Under the pieces are notes generated by a model that saw nothing but the letters and a program-made list of their open reading frames with translations, did no database searches and was not told where the DNA came from. The translations under genes were made by a program, and so were the position numbers. From assembly GCA_934597345.1 (NCBI GenBank), contig CAKTRJ010000016.1, forward strand, positions 1 to 53,152: a stretch of DNA of 53,152 nucleotides. Reading direction: 5' to 3'. Source of the DNA: an uncultured Oscillospiraceae bacterium. Its GTDB lineage: Bacteria; Bacillota; Clostridia; Oscillospirales; Oscillospiraceae. Shown piece by piece: positions 34,347 through 44,712 of this stretch. How positions within the stretch are numbered: the first letter of the stretch is position 1; every line of letters starts with the position of its first letter.

Positions 34347-35936
34347 ATGAAATATGTATTTGTGACAGGCGGCGTGGTGTCCGGTTTGGGCAAGGGCATC
34401 TGCGCGGCGTCGCTGGGCCGCCTTTTGAAGCAGCGGGGCCTGCGGGTGCGGAACCAGAAATTTGACCCTTATCTGAATGTTGACCCCGGCACCATGAGCC
34501 CCTATCAGCACGGCGAGGTGTTCGTCACCGACGACGGGGCGGAGACCGACCTGGATCTGGGCCACTATGAGCGGTTCGTGGACGAGAGCCTGACGGGCCG
34601 GTGCTCCGTGTCCTCCGGCCGGGTGTACTGGGATCTTCTCAACCGTGAGCGGCAGGGCGCGTTCCTGGGCGGCACGGTGCAGATCATCCCCCACGTCACC
34701 GACGAGATCAAGAGCCACGTCTACGCCATGGAGCAGGAGGATGTGGACGTGCTGATCTGCGAGATCGGCGGCACGGTGGGCGATATCGAGAGCCAGCCCT
34801 TCCTGGAGGCCATCCGTCAGGTGGCGGTGGAAAAGGGCCGGGAAAACGTGGTCTACATCCATGTGCCCCTGATCGTCCAGATCCCCGGCAGCGGCGAGCT
34901 GAAGAGCAAGCCCACCCAGCACTCGGTGAAGGAGCTGCTGAGCCTGGGCATCCAGCCGGACGTGCTGGTGTGCCGCAGCGACGTGCCCATTCCGGAGGAC
35001 ATGCGGAAGAAGATCGCCCTGTTCTGCAACATCTCCGAGGCCTGCGTGATCCAGAACACCACGGCGGACACCCTGTATGAGGTGCCGCTGCTGCTGCAGA
35101 AGGAGGGTCTGGACGAGATCGTGTGCCGCAAGCTGGGCCTTTCCTGCCCGGCGGCGGACATGACCCACTGGGCCGCCATGGTCAGCGACATCAAGAACGC
35201 CAGCCGCGAGGTCACCATCGCCCTGGTGGGCAAATACGTCCAGCTTCACGACGCCTACCTCAGCGTGGAGGAATCCCTGTTCCACGCCGGTACCGCCTGC
35301 GGCGCGGTGGTGCATATCCGGTGGGTGGATTCCGAGACCGTGACGGAGGAGAACGCGGCGGAGGTGCTCGCTGGATGCAGCGGCATCCTGGTGCCCGGCG
35401 GCTTCGGTGACCGGGGCATCGAGGGCATGATCGCCGCGGCCCGGTATGCCCGGGAGAACAACATCCCCTATCTGGGCATCTGCCTTGGCATGCAGATCGC
35501 CGTCATCGAATTTGCCCGCCATGTGCTGGGCTGGGCCGACGCCCACTCCACCGAAATGGCGCCCAAGACCGCCCATCCCGTCATCGACCTGATGCCGGAT
35601 CAGGTGGGCGTCAGCAGCAAGGGCGGCACCATGCGGCTGGGCCGGTATCCCTGCGTGCTGGCGGCGGACAGCCGCGCCCGCGCCCTGTACGGCCAGAGTG
35701 AGATCAGCGAGCGGCACCGCCACCGCTATGAGTTCAACAACGACTTCCGGGAGCGCATCACCGCCGCCGGACTGGTGCCCACCGGCACCTCCCCCGACGG
35801 ACATCTGGTGGAGATCGTGGAGAATCCCGCCCATCGCTGGTTCGTGGGCGTGCAGTTCCATCCGGAGTTCAAGAGCCGTCCCGACCGGCCTCATCCCCTG
35901 TTCCGGGGCTTTGTGGCGGCGGCATTGGAGAAATAA
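34347..35936 (+). CDS. pyrG: CTP synthase
   Basis: A 529-residue CTP synthase, slightly shorter than usual. It aminates UTP to CTP using glutamine and ATP. Residues 1-265 are the synthetase domain ([19 protein letters not shown] at the start, with [21 protein letters not shown]), and about 290-529 the glutamine amidotransferase domain with nucleophile Cys379 in LGICLGMQ and the His505/Glu507 pair in [10 protein letters not shown]. All catalytic residues are present. A strong promoter and a hairpin leader precede it; the downstream terminator has been split by a repeat. Confidence 0.97.
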
Positions 35937-36107: not shown

Positions 36108-37148
36108 TTATGAGAACATATGATCCGCGAACGCCGCCAGTCTCTCGTCGATGCCCGGCAGCTTCACCGCCGCGCCGGCGTCGTTGGCCGTTTCCAGCAT
36201 GCAGAACCGGGGCGGCAGACGAAAGGCCTTGTTCATGCACAGAGCCGAGATCAGCTGCTGGGCCACAATGTCGCCGCCGGAGTAGCCGGACACGATGATG
36301 GCGTACAGATCCTTGTCGTAGAAGGGCGTGGTGCGGAACAGGGCCGTCAACCGGTTGATGCAGGCCGTCAGGTTGGCGGCCAGGGCGTCGTTATAGTTGG
36401 GACACAGCCACAGCACGCCGTCGGCGTGGCCGATGGCAGGATATACCTCGTCCACGATGACGCCGCCGTAGAAGCACCGTCCCTCCTCGCCGAAGTGAAG
36501 GCAGGTGCGGAACTCGCAGCCGTTGCAGTCGGCCACCGTACCGTTCCGCAGGCTCACCACCTGCGCGTCCACCCGGCCCTGAAGCCGGGGCGCCATCCGC
36601 TCCCACAGGGCAATGGTGTTGGAGGTCTTGCGGTTGGAGGCGTGCAGCACCATCAGATTGGGATGCTCCCTTACCGGCGCGGTGTCCGCCAGCAGGCGGT
36701 CCACCAGCTCTCGGGCGCAGGCGGTGTAGGCGCTGAGATAGTCCGTGTGCCGCAGCATGGCCCGGATGTGGAAATTCTCCAGCGAGCCGGTGGCCTCCAC
36801 CAGCGGCGCGCCCATAAAGGCGCAGCCCGCCTGATTGGCGGCAAACACGATCTCCCGGGCGGCGGACTTGGTGTAAAGCTCGCCGTCGCCGTCCACCAGC
36901 ACCGCGCCGCGGCAGCCGTCAAAGAAATGGCCGTTCTGCCGGATGGCGGACAGCATGGCGTACCATCCCAGATTCACCCCGCCGTGCAGCAGCGAAACGG
37001 CGAACAGCACCCGCTGTCCCGTCACCGGATGCAGCGCATCAGGGTGCTGCACCTTCACATGAGGGCGGCCCTCCAGCGCGTGGGACAGCACCGCCGCCAG
37101 ACGGGGATTCTCCTCCACCTGCGGACAGATCACCAGCAAAGGCTCCAT
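36108..37148 (-). CDS. Flavodoxin-fold / NADPH-dependent FMN reductase-like protein
   Basis: A 346-residue protein with two flavodoxin-like halves. The C-terminal half carries the FMN-phosphate motif ASNRKTSNT (residues 170-178), the iron-sulfur-flavoprotein-like cysteines CNGCEFRTC (208, 211, 216) and VSGYSGGDIVAQQ. The N-terminal half lacks the phosphate-binding loop and may be a degenerate copy. It likely binds FMN and carries out electron transfer; the partner is unknown. It is the last gene of a three-gene operon, its ribosome site overlapping the end of the LDH-fold gene. GTP or nucleotide links are not visible in it. Confidence 0.8.
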   Translation of the reverse strand: MEPLLVICPQVEENPRLAAVLSHALEGRPHVKVQHPDALHPVTGQRVLFAVSLLHGGVNLGWYAMLSAIRQNGHFFDGCRGAVLVDGDGELYTKSAAREIVFAANQAGCAFMGAPLVEATGSLENFHIRAMLRHTDYLSAYTACARELVDRLLADTAPVREHPNLMVLHASNRKTSNTIALWERMAPRLQGRVDAQVVSLRNGTVADCNGCEFRTCLHFGEEGRCFYGGVIVDEVYPAIGHADGVLWLCPNYNDALAANLTACINRLTALFRTTPFYDKDLYAIIVSGYSGGDIVAQQLISALCMNKAFRLPPRFCMLETANDAGAAVKLPGIDERLAAFADHMFS

Positions 37149-37164
37149 GTTGCCTGCCTCCTTC

Positions 37165-38394
37165 TCAAATAATGGCCCGCAGGATGTCCTGCGTCTCCGT
37201 CAGCCGGGCAAACAGATCGTCCGGCAGAGGGATATCCTCCGTTTCCAGCCCCGTGGGGGTATAGCGGTTCTTCACACCCATAAAGATATCACCCAGACAT
37301 ACGCTGCCGTAGTGCCATTCGCCCCGCAGCGTCAGCAGCACGCTGATGGCCGCCGAGGACAGCGCCGGCGCCACATAGGGCTTGAAGCCCAGCTCCCGCA
37401 TTTTCAGGTTGGCCGTCAGGGCCAGCTCCGTCAGCTCACGGGACAGGGCGTCATCATAGTGCTCGATGGAGTTGGCGATCACCAGTCCGCTGCCGTGGGG
37501 GCCGAAGGCCCGGCCCTCCGTCAGGAAGGAGGCGAAGCGCTCCTCCTGCCTGGCGTAGTAGGCGGCGCGGGCGTTCATGACGCCAAGGCCGTAGCCCTGC
37601 ACCTGCTGGGGCAGCAGGCCCATGCCGTCGTACACGCCGTTTTCGTCCCGGTTGGAGGCCAGCAGCGCCGCCCGGGACAGGGGGTCCACCGGGTCGGAGA
37701 TCACGCAGAAGAGTCCCCGGAACCTGGCCTCCCGCGCCTTGCGGGCGTACAGCTCCACCAGTCCCCGGTTGGCCTCGAACTGGGCCATCCGCACATCCTT
37801 CACGCCGCTGCCCACGGCGGGGATGCCCTTGGACGCCACAAAGAGAAACGCGTCGCAGTCGAAAAGCGTCTCCTGGGACACGATCTCCACAGGGGGCATG
37901 GCGTTATACTGCCACGGCAGCGTCACCTGATTCAGCTCAAACTCCCAGCGCCTGGTGGCGGCCTCGTTGATGTCGCAGATGCCGATAGCGGATATCGTGT
38001 CGCCGCCCAGCAGCTTCAGCCCCATGGCGATGGTGCTGCCCACATCGCCGATGGCCAGAATGTGGACGCGCTTTTTGCCCGCCTTGGGCTGCCATGCCGC
38101 CATCTCCCGCCAGCGGGGATGGTCGAAGTTCACCGCCCGCAGGCCGCCGGTCAGCCATTCCGCCGCCTCAATGGGCGGCGCCTGGGTCACGGCGATGCGG
38201 CGGCTGTCCAGCCACGACACGTCCTCCCCCGCCGCCGTCAGCTGGGAAAGGGCCGTGGCGGAGAAGGCGGCCCGGCCGCTCTCCGGGGCGCGGTGGTACA
38301 GAAAGATGGGTTGGCCCTGGGCGGTCTCCGCCGCCGTCAGGGGCAGCGGCTCGCAGGACACGAAATACTGTCCGTTTTCCTCGTATTGATACAT
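37165..38394 (-). CDS. LDH/MDH-fold dehydrogenase-like protein of unknown function
   Basis: A 409-residue protein that looks like a distant member of the lactate/malate dehydrogenase superfamily. After about 105 variable residues comes the Rossmann start VHILAIGDVGSTIAMGLKLLGG (Gly-rich loop at 116-119), ending in the acidic CDIN (Asp141) expected for NAD. The strand-and-loop VISDPVDPLS (232-240) mirrors the VTNPVD motif of LDH/MDH. The usual catalytic histidine region is not obvious to me, and the family is not one I can name. Spacing of 14 and 16 bp to its neighbours places it in the middle of the operon with the large multidomain protein and the flavin protein. Confidence 0.7.
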   Translation of the reverse strand: MYQYEENGQYFVSCEPLPLTAAETAQGQPIFLYHRAPESGRAAFSATALSQLTAAGEDVSWLDSRRIAVTQAPPIEAAEWLTGGLRAVNFDHPRWREMAAWQPKAGKKRVHILAIGDVGSTIAMGLKLLGGDTISAIGICDINEAATRRWEFELNQVTLPWQYNAMPPVEIVSQETLFDCDAFLFVASKGIPAVGSGVKDVRMAQFEANRGLVELYARKAREARFRGLFCVISDPVDPLSRAALLASNRDENGVYDGMGLLPQQVQGYGLGVMNARAAYYARQEERFASFLTEGRAFGPHGSGLVIANSIEHYDDALSRELTELALTANLKMRELGFKPYVAPALSSAAISVLLTLRGEWHYGSVCLGDIFMGVKNRYTPTGLETEDIPLPDDLFARLTETQDILRAII

Positions 38395-38408
38395 GATGGT
38401 TCCTCCTT

Positions 38409-41400
38409 TTACCGGAACAGGTTCTCCAGCCGCCGCAGCGTCTCCAGATCGTCACGGAGATAATCGGACACCGCGCCATCAAGGCTGTACTGCATCCGGC
38501 CCTTATCGGGGCACAGGGGCAGCACCACCGCTTCGCTGAGCCGCCGCAGTGTCAGGCTGCGGGCATAGACCCGGCGGTAGGCGGTCTCCAGCGCCTCGAT
38601 GATATACAGGGTATTCTCGATGCAGGTGCGGGAGAAGGTATAGGCCGCGTCCGCGCCGCACTGGCGCAGATGCTCCGGATAGACGTAGGGCAAGATCAGG
38701 TTCACCGACGGTTGTAAGCCGGAGCGCTCCATGTCGGGGTGCTCCACTGTGTCGCCGCCGATAAAGGGATACAGGGTGGACTCCACATACCATGCCCGCA
38801 GATTGGGCACAAAATACACATAATCCACATCCCGGCCCAGCTGCTGGGCCAGATCCCGGCCCTGACCGGACAGGATGCCCACCAGCACCTCCTTGATCTC
38901 CACCTGCTGCTCCCGGGCCAGCGGGTCCAGCACGCCGATGCGGCGGCCGGTGTGGAGCTGGTCGTCCACCAGGATCACCGGACGGCGGAAGGAGTGGACC
39001 ACCCGCATCTGATCCGCCAGCGGCGCATAGCCGGGGAAGGCCGCGATATGCTGGGTGCGCCGGTCGGCGGCAAACACCTTGTCGGTGTGGATGGTCTTGG
39101 TGACGGTGTTGGGGATGGCGGCCCGCCGCAGCAGCTTGCCGAAGGGCACGCACATATAGGGGCCCAGCACACGGGGCTTGGTGGGGATCATAGGCACGCC
39201 GTTCAGGGCGGTGATCTTTTCCACCAGCCGGTGCAGCACCAGCTGGGAGGAGATGGTGAAGATCAGCCGTCCGGGGTACAGATCCACCAGCCCCAGCTTG
39301 AACCGCCGCCGTGCCTGATGGATGGCGGACAGCACCGCGCCGTCGCCGCTGAAGGGCGGCTTGATGGCGGTCTCCACGTTCTGCAGGAACACCACCGGGG
39401 CGCTCATGTCCGCCAGCAGCAGCGAGGGGTCGCCGGGCCGCACCGGGCGCAGGCCCTGCTGCCGCAGCAGGTCATCCGCCGCCGGATCCGCCGGCGCGTC
39501 CAGCGCCGCAAACAGCGCCCACAGGCAGTCCCGCTCCATGGCCTGGGCAAACAGCTGCGTCAGCAATAGCTGCAAGGACTCCGTGTCGCCGCCGTACAGG
39601 CCCGTCAGGCACAAAAGCTTACCGGAGGCCACGCCCCGCACGTCGTTGACCCGTGCCGGGTCGCCCAGCAGGGACAGCAGCTCGCGGGTACGGCGCTGGC
39701 TGAAGGCGGCGGCGCACAGCAGCGTTCCGCCGCTGCGCAGCGTCATGATCCGCTCGCCCCGGCGGCGGGTGCCGTCGGCGGCGGCAGGCGGCATACCCAG
39801 GGCCAGCAGCTCCGTCAGCAGCGGCTCCTCCGGCTCCGCCTCGTCAAAACGCAGCGTGCCGGGGGACAGCAGCGGCTTATACTGGGGTTCCCGCAGGTAA
39901 AGGCCCCGCTGGTAGATATACTCCTGCACCACCGGATCGATCAGGTGGGAGATATCCCGGTTCATGTCGATGTTTTCCCGGATACGGGTGGAGCTGATGT
40001 CCTCCAGCTGGGAGGGCAGCTGCAGCTGCACCACCTTGCCGGCGATCATGCCCACGTCGGCGTCCGCATCCTTCTCCTCCCCGTGGAGGGCGGAGACCCG
40101 GCGGAACACGATGTGGTTCATGCTGTGGACGGAATCAGGGCTGGGGTCCGCCTTGTAGGAGGACGCCCCGTGGATCACGTCGGAGCCCACGATGAGATAC
40201 AGCTCCCGTCCGGCGAACATGTTCTTCAGCCGCCGCAGGTCGCCGGGATTGGCGATGTTGACGGGGATGTTATAGGGGAACAGGTGGACATGGAACTCGT
40301 CCGCCACCGACATGGAGGCGATCTTCCGGCGGATCAGGCTGGGCTGGGTCTTTTTCGACCACGAGAATTCGTCCACCGCCAGGAACACCTCATAGCCCAT
40401 ATCCCGGATGGTGCAGGCCAGCGCCTTGTGGGACAGGGTGAAGGGATCGAAGGTACCGGGGAAGAAGGCCACCTTCTGCCGCTGGGTAAACCGGAAGGGG
40501 CCGTTGTCGGTCTCATACCGGACGATAAACTGATAGATGCGGTACAGCGCCGCCGAGCAGTACAGGTCGTTCAGCCCGCCGCCCTGATTCTCCCGGATCA
40601 GGAACAGCAACTTGTGGGCGCACAGGGTGAACAGCCACGCCTTCCGCTCGTCGGGGAACCGGATGGAGGAGAACAGCGTGTCGCCCATGACGTACATGGC
40701 CTCCTGCTGCACCGCCTCACGGTAGGAGGCCATGCCCTTCAGCAGCAGTCCCGCCAGACGGCAGCGGCGGCGGTCCCACACGCCTTCCTCCTCCGGAAAG
40801 CGCCGGGGATACAGCCGGTAGTTCTCCAGCGCGAAGCCCACCGTATCCAGTGCCGAGGCCACCACACTGTCGGCGGAGTGGCTCAGCAGCTCCGCCAGAT
40901 AGTCGATGACCTCATCCAGCTCCGCCGGCGGCAGCCACAGCATAAAGGAGCCCAGATACTGGGGGATATACTTGGAAAATTCATAGTGGCCTGCCTCCAG
41001 CGCCTTGGCCAGCTCCACGGCCACCTCGTTGCGCTCCTCGCTGGTAAGCCGGGGCGCGATGCCAAGCAGGGCGCGGCCCGCCCGCTCCCGCACCACCACC
41101 GCTTCGCTGACGCGGATGATGTTGGCAAAATGGGCGGCGATCTGCATGGCGCTCCCGCCGCCGTGGGCGGCGTACCGGGCCAGCAGCTCCACGTTGACCA
41201 CCTTGATCATCCACGGCGTGGCGGTTTTCAGATTGTCCAGCAGGATGTCCGACAGCTCCTCCGGCTTCAGGGCCTTGACCGCCTCCTCCGCCGCCATGCC
41301 CTGTACCCGCCCGTACTGATACCGCAGAGAGGGCAGCGGGAAGGTGACGTTCTCCGCCCGCAGCCGCGCCAGCCGGTCATTGAGAAGCGGCTCCTCCGAC

Positions 41401-43154
41401 AGCGTCTGCCGCGCCCGCAGGAAGAATTGCAGCGCCGCCGCCTGTACGGAGGGATCGGCGCTGCGGCACTGGGCCAGCGCGAAATCCGTCACCTGCTGAA
41501 GCTGCGCCTGTGTCAGCAGCTTCAGCGGCAGATAGCTCAGCGTATCCGTCAGGGCCAGCGCCGCGCCCTCGTCCTCCACCTTGGCGGACTGATAGTGGGC
41601 CAGCAGCACCGCAAGGAACCGCTCCGTCTCCTGGGGCGCGCAGTTCTCCAGCGTAGCGGACACCACCAGCTTGGCGGTGAACCGGATGTGGCTGGTCTGC
41701 TGGGGCGTCAGCTTATGGTCGGGATAGAACAGCAGGTTCAGATACTGCGCCCACAGGGCGAACTGGGTCTGCTCCACGGCGGCCTGCGGCGCGGAGGAGG
41801 GCAGCTCTTTCTTGTAGCGCAGGCTGAATTTGGCCATCACCCGGCCCATCAGCGCCGCCGCCTGGCGGCGGATGTCGCCCTCGGGGTGCAGCAGCAGCTC
41901 ATAGAGGAAGTATACCGTCTGGATCTTCTGGTTGGCGGACAGATAGGTGAAGTAGTCCTCCAGAATACACAGATAGGTGCGGACCCTGGCCCAGTCCTTC
42001 TCGCTGCGGGCCTTTTCCAGCAGGTCGGAGAACAGGCCCTCGTGGCTCAGCCGCCGCATCATGCTCAGGTTGTGCTCCACCGCCATCAGGCAGAAGGCCC
42101 GGTAGTACTGCTCCGGCGTCATCAGCGCCGCGTCCGGCTGCTGCTCCGGCGCCGTGTCATGTCCCTGCAGCGTCACGTCCACGCCGCGGAAGCGCATATA
42201 TTCCTCAAAGTCCCGCAGCTTGCGGTACACATACTCATACCGGCGCTTTTTGGCACCGTCCACGTTGTCCAGCTTGCTGAGGATCACGTCAAAGGCGTCC
42301 TTCAGGGAGTACAGTGCCGCCGTCTCCCGGCCGTCCGCCTCCCGCCGCTGCTTGGAGCGGAAGTCGGCATAGATCAGCAGCATGGATTCCACCGACAGGT
42401 TGGCCAGCTCCAGATCCCATGTGGAGTGGTTGCCCGCCACCTGTCCCACCTGGGGAAGGCCGGAGCGGGTCAGCCACTCGTCGGTGTAGTAATAGTGGAG
42501 ATACGGCACCCGCTCTCCCGGCAGGCAGCCGAATTTGCCGATGTCGTGGCCTGCCGCCGCCGCGGAGGTCAGCCCCAGATCCACCGTCACGCCGCTGCGG
42601 CGCAGGGCGCGTCCGGCGGTCATAGCCACATGGTGCACCATGGCGATGTGCTGCAGGGTGCTGAAGGGCGTCAACTCGCTGCTCAGCCGCAGCAGCTCAT
42701 AGATAAAGTCCTGCCGCCACACCTGCAGAAACCGCTGATAGTAGGGGCTGTCCGCCGCCTCCGCCTCGGTGCAGAAGGCGAAATCCATGGTCATGTCGAA
42801 GGATAGGTTCCGCTCCTCCGCCAGCAGCAGCTGTAAGGCCAGCAAGGCGCACAGGGCAAGATCCTCCTGCTGCTCCGTGGCCTCTCTGCGGTGCTGGGGA
42901 TACAGCCGGGCAATGGCGTTGCTGAGCACATAGCCGCTCCAGCCGCCCTCCGGCGCGGGAATATCCGCCATGGCGGCGGCCGCCGTCTCGATCACGGCGC
43001 GGCAGGAAAGGCGCTGCCGCACCGGCAGAAAGCCCTCGACAAAGCGCTCCTTCGCCCAGCGCTCCGCCATGTCCGGATCGTGCAGCCGTTTCCGGAACGC
43101 CGCGTCCCGGAAGGCGTCGCTCCAATGCTGGCGGAAAATGGCTTTATGGGTCAT
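38409..43154 (-). CDS. Giant multidomain protein: HD, helical repeats, NadD-like and PRTase-like
   Basis: A 1581-residue soluble protein, start at ATG behind AAAGGAGG. Residues about 165-300 look like an HD phosphohydrolase: IAMVHHVAMTAG, GHDIGKFGC near 201, VAGNHSTWDLE, then IYADF. Residues about 430-870 are helix pairs resembling HEAT-type repeats. About 893-1085 is a nucleotidyltransferase of the NadD type: VAFFPGTFDPFTLSHK near 900 (T-x-x-H variant of HxGH), LIVGSD, and ISSTRIREN near 1054. About 1085-1250 may be a GNAT-like fold. About 1290-1490 resembles a type I phosphoribosyltransferase, with the PRPP loop VILVDDQLHTGRR near 1393. In many Firmicutes nadD lies beside the HD-domain gene yqeK, so fusion of the two activities is plausible. 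I know of no characterised protein with this layout; the reaction is unknown. Confidence 0.8.
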   Translation of the reverse strand: MTHKAIFRQHWSDAFRDAAFRKRLHDPDMAERWAKERFVEGFLPVRQRLSCRAVIETAAAAMADIPAPEGGWSGYVLSNAIARLYPQHRREATEQQEDLALCALLALQLLLAEERNLSFDMTMDFAFCTEAEAADSPYYQRFLQVWRQDFIYELLRLSSELTPFSTLQHIAMVHHVAMTAGRALRRSGVTVDLGLTSAAAAGHDIGKFGCLPGERVPYLHYYYTDEWLTRSGLPQVGQVAGNHSTWDLELANLSVESMLLIYADFRSKQRREADGRETAALYSLKDAFDVILSKLDNVDGAKKRRYEYVYRKLRDFEEYMRFRGVDVTLQGHDTAPEQQPDAALMTPEQYYRAFCLMAVEHNLSMMRRLSHEGLFSDLLEKARSEKDWARVRTYLCILEDYFTYLSANQKIQTVYFLYELLLHPEGDIRRQAAALMGRVMAKFSLRYKKELPSSAPQAAVEQTQFALWAQYLNLLFYPDHKLTPQQTSHIRFTAKLVVSATLENCAPQETERFLAVLLAHYQSAKVEDEGAALALTDTLSYLPLKLLTQAQLQQVTDFALAQCRSADPSVQAAALQFFLRARQTLSEEPLLNDRLARLRAENVTFPLPSLRYQYGRVQGMAAEEAVKALKPEELSDILLDNLKTATPWMIKVVNVELLARYAAHGGGSAMQIAAHFANIIRVSEAVVVRERAGRALLGIAPRLTSEERNEVAVELAKALEAGHYEFSKYIPQYLGSFMLWLPPAELDEVIDYLAELLSHSADSVVASALDTVGFALENYRLYPRRFPEEEGVWDRRRCRLAGLLLKGMASYREAVQQEAMYVMGDTLFSSIRFPDERKAWLFTLCAHKLLFLIRENQGGGLNDLYCSAALYRIYQFIVRYETDNGPFRFTQRQKVAFFPGTFDPFTLSHKALACTIRDMGYEVFLAVDEFSWSKKTQPSLIRRKIASMSVADEFHVHLFPYNIPVNIANPGDLRRLKNMFAGRELYLIVGSDVIHGASSYKADPSPDSVHSMNHIVFRRVSALHGEEKDADADVGMIAGKVVQLQLPSQLEDISSTRIRENIDMNRDISHLIDPVVQEYIYQRGLYLREPQYKPLLSPGTLRFDEAEPEEPLLTELLALGMPPAAADGTRRRGERIMTLRSGGTLLCAAAFSQRRTRELLSLLGDPARVNDVRGVASGKLLCLTGLYGGDTESLQLLLTQLFAQAMERDCLWALFAALDAPADPAADDLLRQQGLRPVRPGDPSLLLADMSAPVVFLQNVETAIKPPFSGDGAVLSAIHQARRRFKLGLVDLYPGRLIFTISSQLVLHRLVEKITALNGVPMIPTKPRVLGPYMCVPFGKLLRRAAIPNTVTKTIHTDKVFAADRRTQHIAAFPGYAPLADQMRVVHSFRRPVILVDDQLHTGRRIGVLDPLAREQQVEIKEVLVGILSGQGRDLAQQLGRDVDYVYFVPNLRAWYVESTLYPFIGGDTVEHPDMERSGLQPSVNLILPYVYPEHLRQCGADAAYTFSRTCIENTLYIIEALETAYRRVYARSLTLRRLSEAVVLPLCPDKGRMQYSLDGAVSDYLRDDLETLRRLENLFR

Positions 43155-43842: not shown

Positions 43843-44712
43843 TCACCCCTCCATGTTCTCCCTTACGAAATTCAAAAACCGCCTTGCGGCGGGGGACATG
43901 ATCTCCGGCGGCGGCGTGGCGATGCCCACCTCCACGTACTGGGGCGGGTCCAGCGGACGGAACACCACATTGCCGTTCAGCGTCTCAGCGATCAGGGCGT
44001 TCACCAGCGCCACGCCCAGCCCCGCCTCTACCATGGCCATGGCGGAAAAATCGTCCTCCACACCGGCGAACCGGTTGCCGGGGCAGACACCGTTCTCCGC
44101 CAGAATACGGGAGTTGTCCGTCTCCCGGCCGGGGTAGATCTCAATATAGCTCTCCGTCTCCAGCCGCCGGATGGGTACGGCCTCCTCCGCCGCCAGCGGA
44201 TGCTGCGGGGAAAGCATCACCATCATCTGATCCTGCCGCAGAGGCAGCCACTGATGCGGCCCTTCCCGGCGGCTGATGATGCACAGGTCGGCCCGATGCT
44301 CCCGCAAAGCGGTCACCAGCGTGGTGCTGGTGCCCTCGATGGTCTGGAAGGCGATGCCGGGGTGCTTCTCCCGGAAGCGGGCCATCAGCTGGGCCAGCTG
44401 CCGGGCATAGAACCGGTAATTGGCCCCCACGGTGATGCTGCCCTGCTCCAACCCCCGCAGTGACGCCGCCGTCTGGCGGCAGCTCTCCGCCTGATATACC
44501 ATCTGCCGCAGGGCGGGCAGCAACGTCTCACATTCGCCGGTGGCGCTTACGCCGCTCCGCCCGCGGTACAGCAGCGGAAAGCCCACGTCCTCCTCCAGCG
44601 CGGCGATCATCCGGCTGATGCCGGAGGGCGTATAGCCCAGCCTGTCCGCCGCCCGGGCCAGCGTCCCCTCCTCCAGTGCGCACAGCAGCGCCGCGCATTT
44701 CTCCGTATCCAT
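43843..44712 (-). CDS. LysR-type transcriptional regulator
   Basis: A 289-residue LysR-family regulator. The N-terminal winged helix-turn-helix is LLCALEEGTLARAADRLGYTPSGISRMIAALEEDVG (split here in the reading of residues 9-44), followed by a linker helix and a periplasmic-binding-like effector domain (GSITVGANYRFYARQLAQL, EHRADLCIISR, MVEAGLGVALVN). It is divergent from the small membrane protein and the DMT transporter, so by the family's habit it likely controls them. The effector is unknown. The gene stops nine bases from the large repeat. Confidence 0.92.
   Translation of the reverse strand: MDTEKCAALLCALEEGTLARAADRLGYTPSGISRMIAALEEDVGFPLLYRGRSGVSATGECETLLPALRQMVYQAESCRQTAASLRGLEQGSITVGANYRFYARQLAQLMARFREKHPGIAFQTIEGTSTTLVTALREHRADLCIISRREGPHQWLPLRQDQMMVMLSPQHPLAAEEAVPIRRLETESYIEIYPGRETDNSRILAENGVCPGNRFAGVEDDFSAMAMVEAGLGVALVNALIAETLNGNVVFRPLDPPQYVEVGIATPPPEIMSPAARRFLNFVRENMEG

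Follow-up and report, generated by a model that had tools for sequence, protein, structure and literature searches.

A 53,152-nucleotide contig from an uncultured Oscillospiraceae bacterium (the window; CAKTRJ010000016.1 of GenBank assembly GCA_934597345.1) carries a three-gene operon in which a 1581-residue protein is encoded together with two redox-type proteins. In N-to-C order, this large protein (38409..43154, minus strand, as an open reading frame) joins an HD domain, a HEAT/ARM-type solenoid, a NadD-fold nucleotidyltransferase (NT), a GNAT-like domain, and a type I phosphoribosyltransferase (PRTase)-like domain. Its active-site-type residues are conserved, the three genes are linked across Clostridia, the NT domain is intact in every examined copy that has a redox partner, and the HD domain is separable from the rest. 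Tentatively, and short of even confidence, we propose that the trio is a dedicated, self-contained Clostridia system that would make, hydrolyze, and use in redox chemistry a dinucleotide of the nicotinamide adenine dinucleotide (NAD) type. We infer from these features that each domain is active, and likewise which base is involved, how the steps are ordered, and what the physiological role is.

Layout and linkage of the three genes

The large gene is followed after 14 bases by a gene for a protein of the lactate/malate dehydrogenase (LDH/MDH) superfamily (37165..38394, minus strand; 409 residues with an N-terminal extension), recognized by Ldh_1_N, profile matches to PDB sequences, and individual residues. 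After another 16 bases comes a gene for an FMN_red protein (36108..37148, minus strand; 346 residues with an additional N-terminal domain), recognized by PF03358 and four invariant cysteines. The first-pass annotation, made from the DNA letters, had described a three-gene operon with NAD-type Rossmann and flavin-type partners, and these gaps, along with the linkage described below, bear it out. Its calls of an HD phosphohydrolase, a long helical solenoid, a NadD-type nucleotidyltransferase, and a type I phosphoribosyltransferase within the 1581-residue protein also stood, but it overlooked the GNAT-like domain.

The complete trio occurs at 91 of 97 loci, with identical order and strand in 91/91 and both gaps below 300 bases in 88. 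The remaining six comprise three partnerless large genes (L010, L064, and L072), one operon split across two contigs (L063 and L065), and L127. A later locus set added five further complete trios in unchanged order (L228 and L232-L235). Many loci were picked for their LDH-like gene, which makes these counts selected by one member of the trio; two genome samples, themselves draws from larger groups, provide the unbiased check. Protein relatives were taken as the best 120 of 6927 and the best 120 of 7381 matches.

One sample covered 291 genomes of a single class, to which a Clostridium isolate belongs. The large gene was found in 25 of them, the LDH-like gene in 24, and the flavoprotein gene in 23, in a nested pattern, and the missing partner genes are those of G191 and G253, both at contig ends. 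In a sample of one order, the large gene was found in 75/118 genomes and the LDH-like gene in 73/118, all 73 lying within the 75; of the two genomes with a large gene and no LDH-like match, G646 has a contig end there and G640 is a genuine exception. Lower frequencies of the LDH-like gene were seen in the order to which the window's nearest examined relative belongs (2/117) and in a phylum-level sample (4/249).

Partnerless and split copies

A FastTree phylogeny of 112 copies places the copies of the large protein without partners, most of them second copies, in four groups. All copies with a redox partner (98/98) retain seven NT core residues; 96 of them have both partners, and two (L224 and L226) have the LDH-like gene before the contig ends. 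Six of 12 partnerless copies, belonging to two groups, keep five or fewer of the seven, a count that, like its Fisher value, is uncorrected for kinship; excluded from it were L063 and L231, whose contigs end right after the gene, and the truncated L225. A rule that absence of partners means a dead NT domain fit the first three copies and failed on the wider set (6/12). Because the other six partnerless copies keep the NT domain, the rule holds in one direction only, from the presence of partners to an intact NT. The absence of an NT or PRTase fold, or motif loss in homologues, had been named beforehand as grounds for abandoning the first-pass reading, which survived this check for the partnered copies; losses of NT residues were confined to half of the partnerless ones.

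Genomes G561, G592, and G627 separate the two halves of the protein naturally. Each has a partnered copy of 1076-1201 residues without an HD domain and a second copy that retains the HD residues (the HD-less partnered copies are L224, L226, and L228). Complete HD-bearing second copies (L227 and L229) have degenerate NT domains; the second copy in G627 (L225) breaks off with its contig, leaving only its N-terminal part visible. An intact NT domain thus goes with redox partners, and the HD domain can be separated from it. Given these split copies and the intact NT domain in all partnered copies, we interpret the NT domain as forming a functional unit with the redox proteins, and the HD domain as a unit of its own. 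The split copies offer a direct way to find out experimentally what each half does.

A gene of the APH kinase family adjoins eight of the 12 partnerless copies (L010, L064, L072, L218-L221, and L223; Pfam matches for four of the eight) and was seen at none of the examined loci with redox partners, as if the kinase were an alternative partner of the large protein. Upstream of two partnerless copies lie genes that by eye are of coenzyme A/pantothenate type, CoaBC-like at L230 and PanB-like at L222.

Nucleotidyltransferase domain

The NT domain (residues about 893-1090; 39885..40478, minus strand) is identified by fold, profile, and residue evidence, including the motifs GTFDPFTLSH, GSD, and ISSTRIR. 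It has the NadD fold, and over 95 full copies, residues F902, D903, P904, W932, R942, Y1000, and H1014 are invariant, with G900, H909, and R1059 each kept in 94. In the NadD motif GTFDPxHxGH, the first histidine is replaced and the second is kept, as is ISSTxxR. In alignment with NadD, the tryptophan of the GxD...W stretch corresponds to tyrosine in 95/95 copies, and so an aromatic base is plausible, although it need not be nicotinate.

Relatives of the large protein are named nicotinate-nucleotide adenylyltransferase or cytidyltransferase in databases (among the matches listed). Taken at face value, the names would make it an ordinary, if oversized, nicotinate-nucleotide adenylyltransferase, which we consider highly improbable: the window protein scores 46.8 bits against TIGR00482 (NadD), whose curated cut-off is 112.45, a canonical NadD is present as well, and the protein has four further domains and two linked neighbors. 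A separate YqeK was found in 20/20 genomes tested, and a canonical NadD pattern adjoins it at 19/21 YqeK loci; the large protein is therefore an extra, and the idea that it substitutes for the housekeeping NadD/YqeK pair was rejected. A practical warning follows: in a genome with a match to the large protein, the true NadD may lie at another locus.

The same housekeeping genes bear on a second explanation, damage control of pyridine nucleotides, in which the NadD-like and HD domains would make and proofread nicotinic acid adenine dinucleotide (NaAD) or NAD and the LDH-like protein and flavoprotein would repair abnormal reduced NAD. The partners are of suitable pyridine-nucleotide and flavin types, and a proofreading role is described for a NadD-YqeK fusion (PMC9426524). 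Yet YqeK and its adjoining NadD are already there, the NadD tryptophan position is tyrosine throughout, and the PRTase-like domain is left unexplained, all of which makes damage control a rather unlikely explanation.

HD domain and solenoid

The HD domain (residues about 131-330; 42165..42764, minus strand) is detected by PF01966 in 32/34 members at an E value of 1 or below (best, 1e-7; window member, 0.06, under the Pfam cut-off). Six ligand-type residues, H169, H203, D204, H220, H243, and D264, are invariant in 95/95 full copies of the first set and are those reported for YqeK, a dinuclear HD phosphatase (PMC8177086). In a scan of the window protein alone, the YqeK model TIGR00488 was absent among the NCBIfam families at an E value of 1 or below. 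The HD domain is followed by an all-helical HEAT/ARM-type solenoid (residues about 347-884; 40503..42116, minus strand), for which the evidence is a predicted model (mean local confidence score, pLDDT, 84.7) and fold matches.

PRTase-like and GNAT-like domains

The C-terminal part of the protein is a type I PRTase-like domain (residues about 1272-1510; 38625..39341, minus strand) with the segments PNTVTK and VILVDDQLHTG, supported by profile, fold, and residue evidence. PF00156 is found in 23/34 members at an E value of 1 or below (best, 7.8e-4), the window member not among them. Residues N1349, D1397, and W1455 are invariant (95/95), and D1398 and G1403 are kept in 91 and 94 of the 95, respectively. 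A list of viral folds matching the model of the large protein includes NMNAT, GNAT, and PRTase names, the last including Hpt, with no ranges given within the model. The PDB fold lists were filled by one domain and barely tested the HD, GNAT, and PRTase parts. A near-invariant PNTxTK..H..K segment (residues 1348-1359; 39078-39113) precedes the loop that resembles a phosphoribosyl pyrophosphate (PRPP) loop; it resembles no motif known to us.

Assignment of the domain to the HPRT type was considered and dropped: a pooled HPRT/PyrR-type group gave 78%, a result that was lost once the groups, named by eye, were separated (HPRT, 38%; PyrR, 33%; UPRT/APRT-like, 46%; PurR-like, 4%). The first PRTase comparison set (29 sequences) contained wrong-frame translations, at least L190, L191, L199, L204, L210, and L214, and the GNAT and YqeK comparison sets, cut the same way, may contain some too.

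Between the NT and PRTase-like domains lies the GNAT-like domain (residues about 1101-1258; 39381..39854, minus strand), called from the secondary structure of the model and a profile match (43% / 2.5e-4), with weak Pfam matches in 3/34 members. Searches of PDB sequences with the GNAT-like and PRTase-like profiles gave nothing better than an E value of 0.15. Only 5/156 columns are conserved at 95% or more, and the domain is probably structural rather than catalytic.

This poor conservation, together with the replacement of T1402 in the PRPP loop by lysine in 81/95 copies, would suit an explanation in which the GNAT-like and PRTase-like domains are noncatalytic ligand sensors and a PRPP- or nucleotide-type effector gates a NadD/HD enzyme. 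However, the PRTase-like domain is conserved about as well as the NT domain (mean majority fraction, 0.65 versus 0.67), its acidic pair (D1397 and D1398) is kept, and the window copy retains a canonical HTG in the loop. On balance, a sensory role strikes us as rather improbable.

Redox-type partners

Ldh_1_N is detected in 11/11 LDH-like members at an E value of 0.1 or below, under the Pfam cut-off, and profile matches to PDB sequences point to the LDH superfamily as well. In LDH numbering, equivalents of Arg109 and Arg171 are present in 93/93 members each and that of His195 in 92/93. Depending on the lineage, the protein is about 320 or about 410-430 residues long, the N-terminal extension (about 100 residues in the window) making the difference.

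PF03358 is found in 10/10 flavoprotein members at an E value of 0.1 or below, and the window protein scores 64 bits against a cut-off of 24. All four cysteines of the cluster C208-x2-C211-x4-C216-x8-C225 are invariant (92/92), and their arrangement suggests a possible iron-sulfur site. The flavoprotein profile had no match among PDB sequences at an E value of 0.1 or below.

Wider neighborhood

In the window, a LysR-type gene (43843-44712) lies upstream of the trio on the same strand, and a CTP synthase gene (34347-35936) lies downstream in convergent orientation. An antiphage defense function was considered and rejected, since PADLOC models matched none of the three window proteins (0 families at an E value of 1 or below). 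No conserved wider neighborhood was seen: beyond the trio, the commonest family, named by eye as glutamate dehydrogenase, lies within five genes at 11/97 loci in varied orientations (L008, L009, L012, L065, L066, L070, L071, L073, L074, L110, and L134), with other families at nine or fewer. At L057 and L058, genes resembling a three-part glutamate synthase and an ammonium transporter (Amt), also named by eye, are inserted between the large and LDH-like genes. A nitrogen link is consequently only suggestive.

These genes would fit a nitrogen or redox regulator akin to GlnD/GlnE, in which the NT domain adds and the HD domain removes a nucleotidyl group on, for instance, the LDH-like protein or glutamate dehydrogenase. 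We judge such a regulator very unlikely, as NadD-type transferases are not known to modify proteins, and the neighborhood signal was chosen after looking, is uncorrected for kinship, and lacks a background rate.

A proposed dinucleotide system

Under the dinucleotide proposal, the large protein would be a polyenzyme built on a HEAT-type scaffold. Its PRTase-like domain may supply or bind a ribonucleotide. With a nucleoside triphosphate as donor, the NadD-like domain would transfer an adenylyl (or other nucleotidyl) group onto a mononucleotide, giving a pyrophosphate-bridged dinucleotide. The HD domain, with its dinuclear-type YqeK ligand set, would hydrolyze this product or an erroneous dinucleotide, and the LDH-like Rossmann protein and the cysteine-rich flavoprotein may make, use, or recycle the product by hydride or electron transfer.

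The model for this arrangement is the NadD-YqeK fusion of JCVI-Syn3, whose HD domain hydrolyzes NaAD and wrong-base analogues (PMC9426524). By analogy with it, we infer that the large protein may be both maker (PRTase-like and NT domains) and breaker (HD domain) of a dinucleotide, with its partners as redox users. The first-pass suggestion of a dinucleotide or PRPP-derived metabolite tied to redox state accordingly keeps its conjectural standing: the linkage of intact NT domains to redox genes and the published fusion favor it, and the lysine in the PRPP loop speaks against its PRPP part. A bolder version, in which a hitherto undescribed NAD-like cofactor or signal is both made and used by the trio, with an unusual base installed by the PRTase-like domain, adenylylation by the NadD-like domain, redox cycling by the two partners, and turnover by the HD domain, seems quite unlikely to us. 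Should the large protein indeed handle a new dinucleotide, the known metabolism of these Clostridia would gain a cofactor or signal.

Several observations weigh against the proposal. Six partnerless copies (L218-L222 and L230) retain all seven NT residues; one of them, L230, belongs to G640, which has no LDH-like match anywhere in its genome, and another, L222, has just 5/6 HD residues. In G615, the large gene (with an internal stop) and the LDH-like gene are on separate contigs, and L127 has an LDH-like gene with no flavoprotein gene beside it, the large gene there being cut by the contig end. Among the domains, the similarity of HD to YqeK is weak (hhalign, 9-12%), and the fold lists did not address this domain on its own; most homologues have KG in place of the PRPP-loop TG, threonine being kept at position 1402 in 3/95. 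Finally, the LDH-like protein has methionine at the catalytic Asp168 position and aspartate at the Asn138 position in 93/93 members each.

Comparison with known systems

Literature searches yielded no published description of this architecture in open PMC literature, judged mostly by titles and the starts of abstracts, in agreement with the earlier remark that no characterized system has this layout. What goes by the name of nicotinate-nucleotide adenylyltransferase or cytidyltransferase is, in this large family, a protein of five domains whose gene is linked across Clostridia to those of two redox-type proteins.

Its parts resemble known proteins to differing degrees. The NT domain shares its fold and the GTFDP, GxD, and ISSTxxR motifs with NadD, the nicotinate mononucleotide adenylyltransferase (TIGR00482), and differs in the replaced first histidine of HxGH, the tyrosine for tryptophan, and a score below the family cut-off. 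With YqeK, the diadenosine tetraphosphate hydrolase (TIGR00488), the HD domain has in common the six-residue dinuclear ligand pattern, whereas it bears extra conserved HYYYT and HSTWDLE segments and its profile similarity is weak. Compared to type I PRTases (PF00156), the PRTase-like domain keeps the acidic PRPP-loop pair and the helix after it but in most copies has the loop threonine replaced by lysine, and it carries its own conserved PNTxTK and W..E....PFIGGD segments. The LDH-like protein matches the L-lactate/malate dehydrogenase superfamily in its GDVG Rossmann motif and its Arg109, Arg171, and His195 equivalents, and departs from it at Asp168 and Asn138 and in falling below the Pfam cut-off. 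The flavoprotein is like iron-sulfur flavoproteins in its FMN_red domain and four invariant cysteines; it differs from them in the spacing CX2CX4CX8C and in its additional N-terminal domain.

As a whole, the closest parallel is the mycoplasma NadD-YqeK fusion (JCVISYN3A_0380; PMC9426524), which likewise combines in one chain a dinucleotide maker, the NadD-type transferase, and a dinucleotide breaker, the HD hydrolase. Unlike the fusion, the large protein has its HD domain first, carries a solenoid and GNAT-like and PRTase-like domains, is accompanied by two redox-type neighbors, and exists alongside a canonical NadD/YqeK pair.

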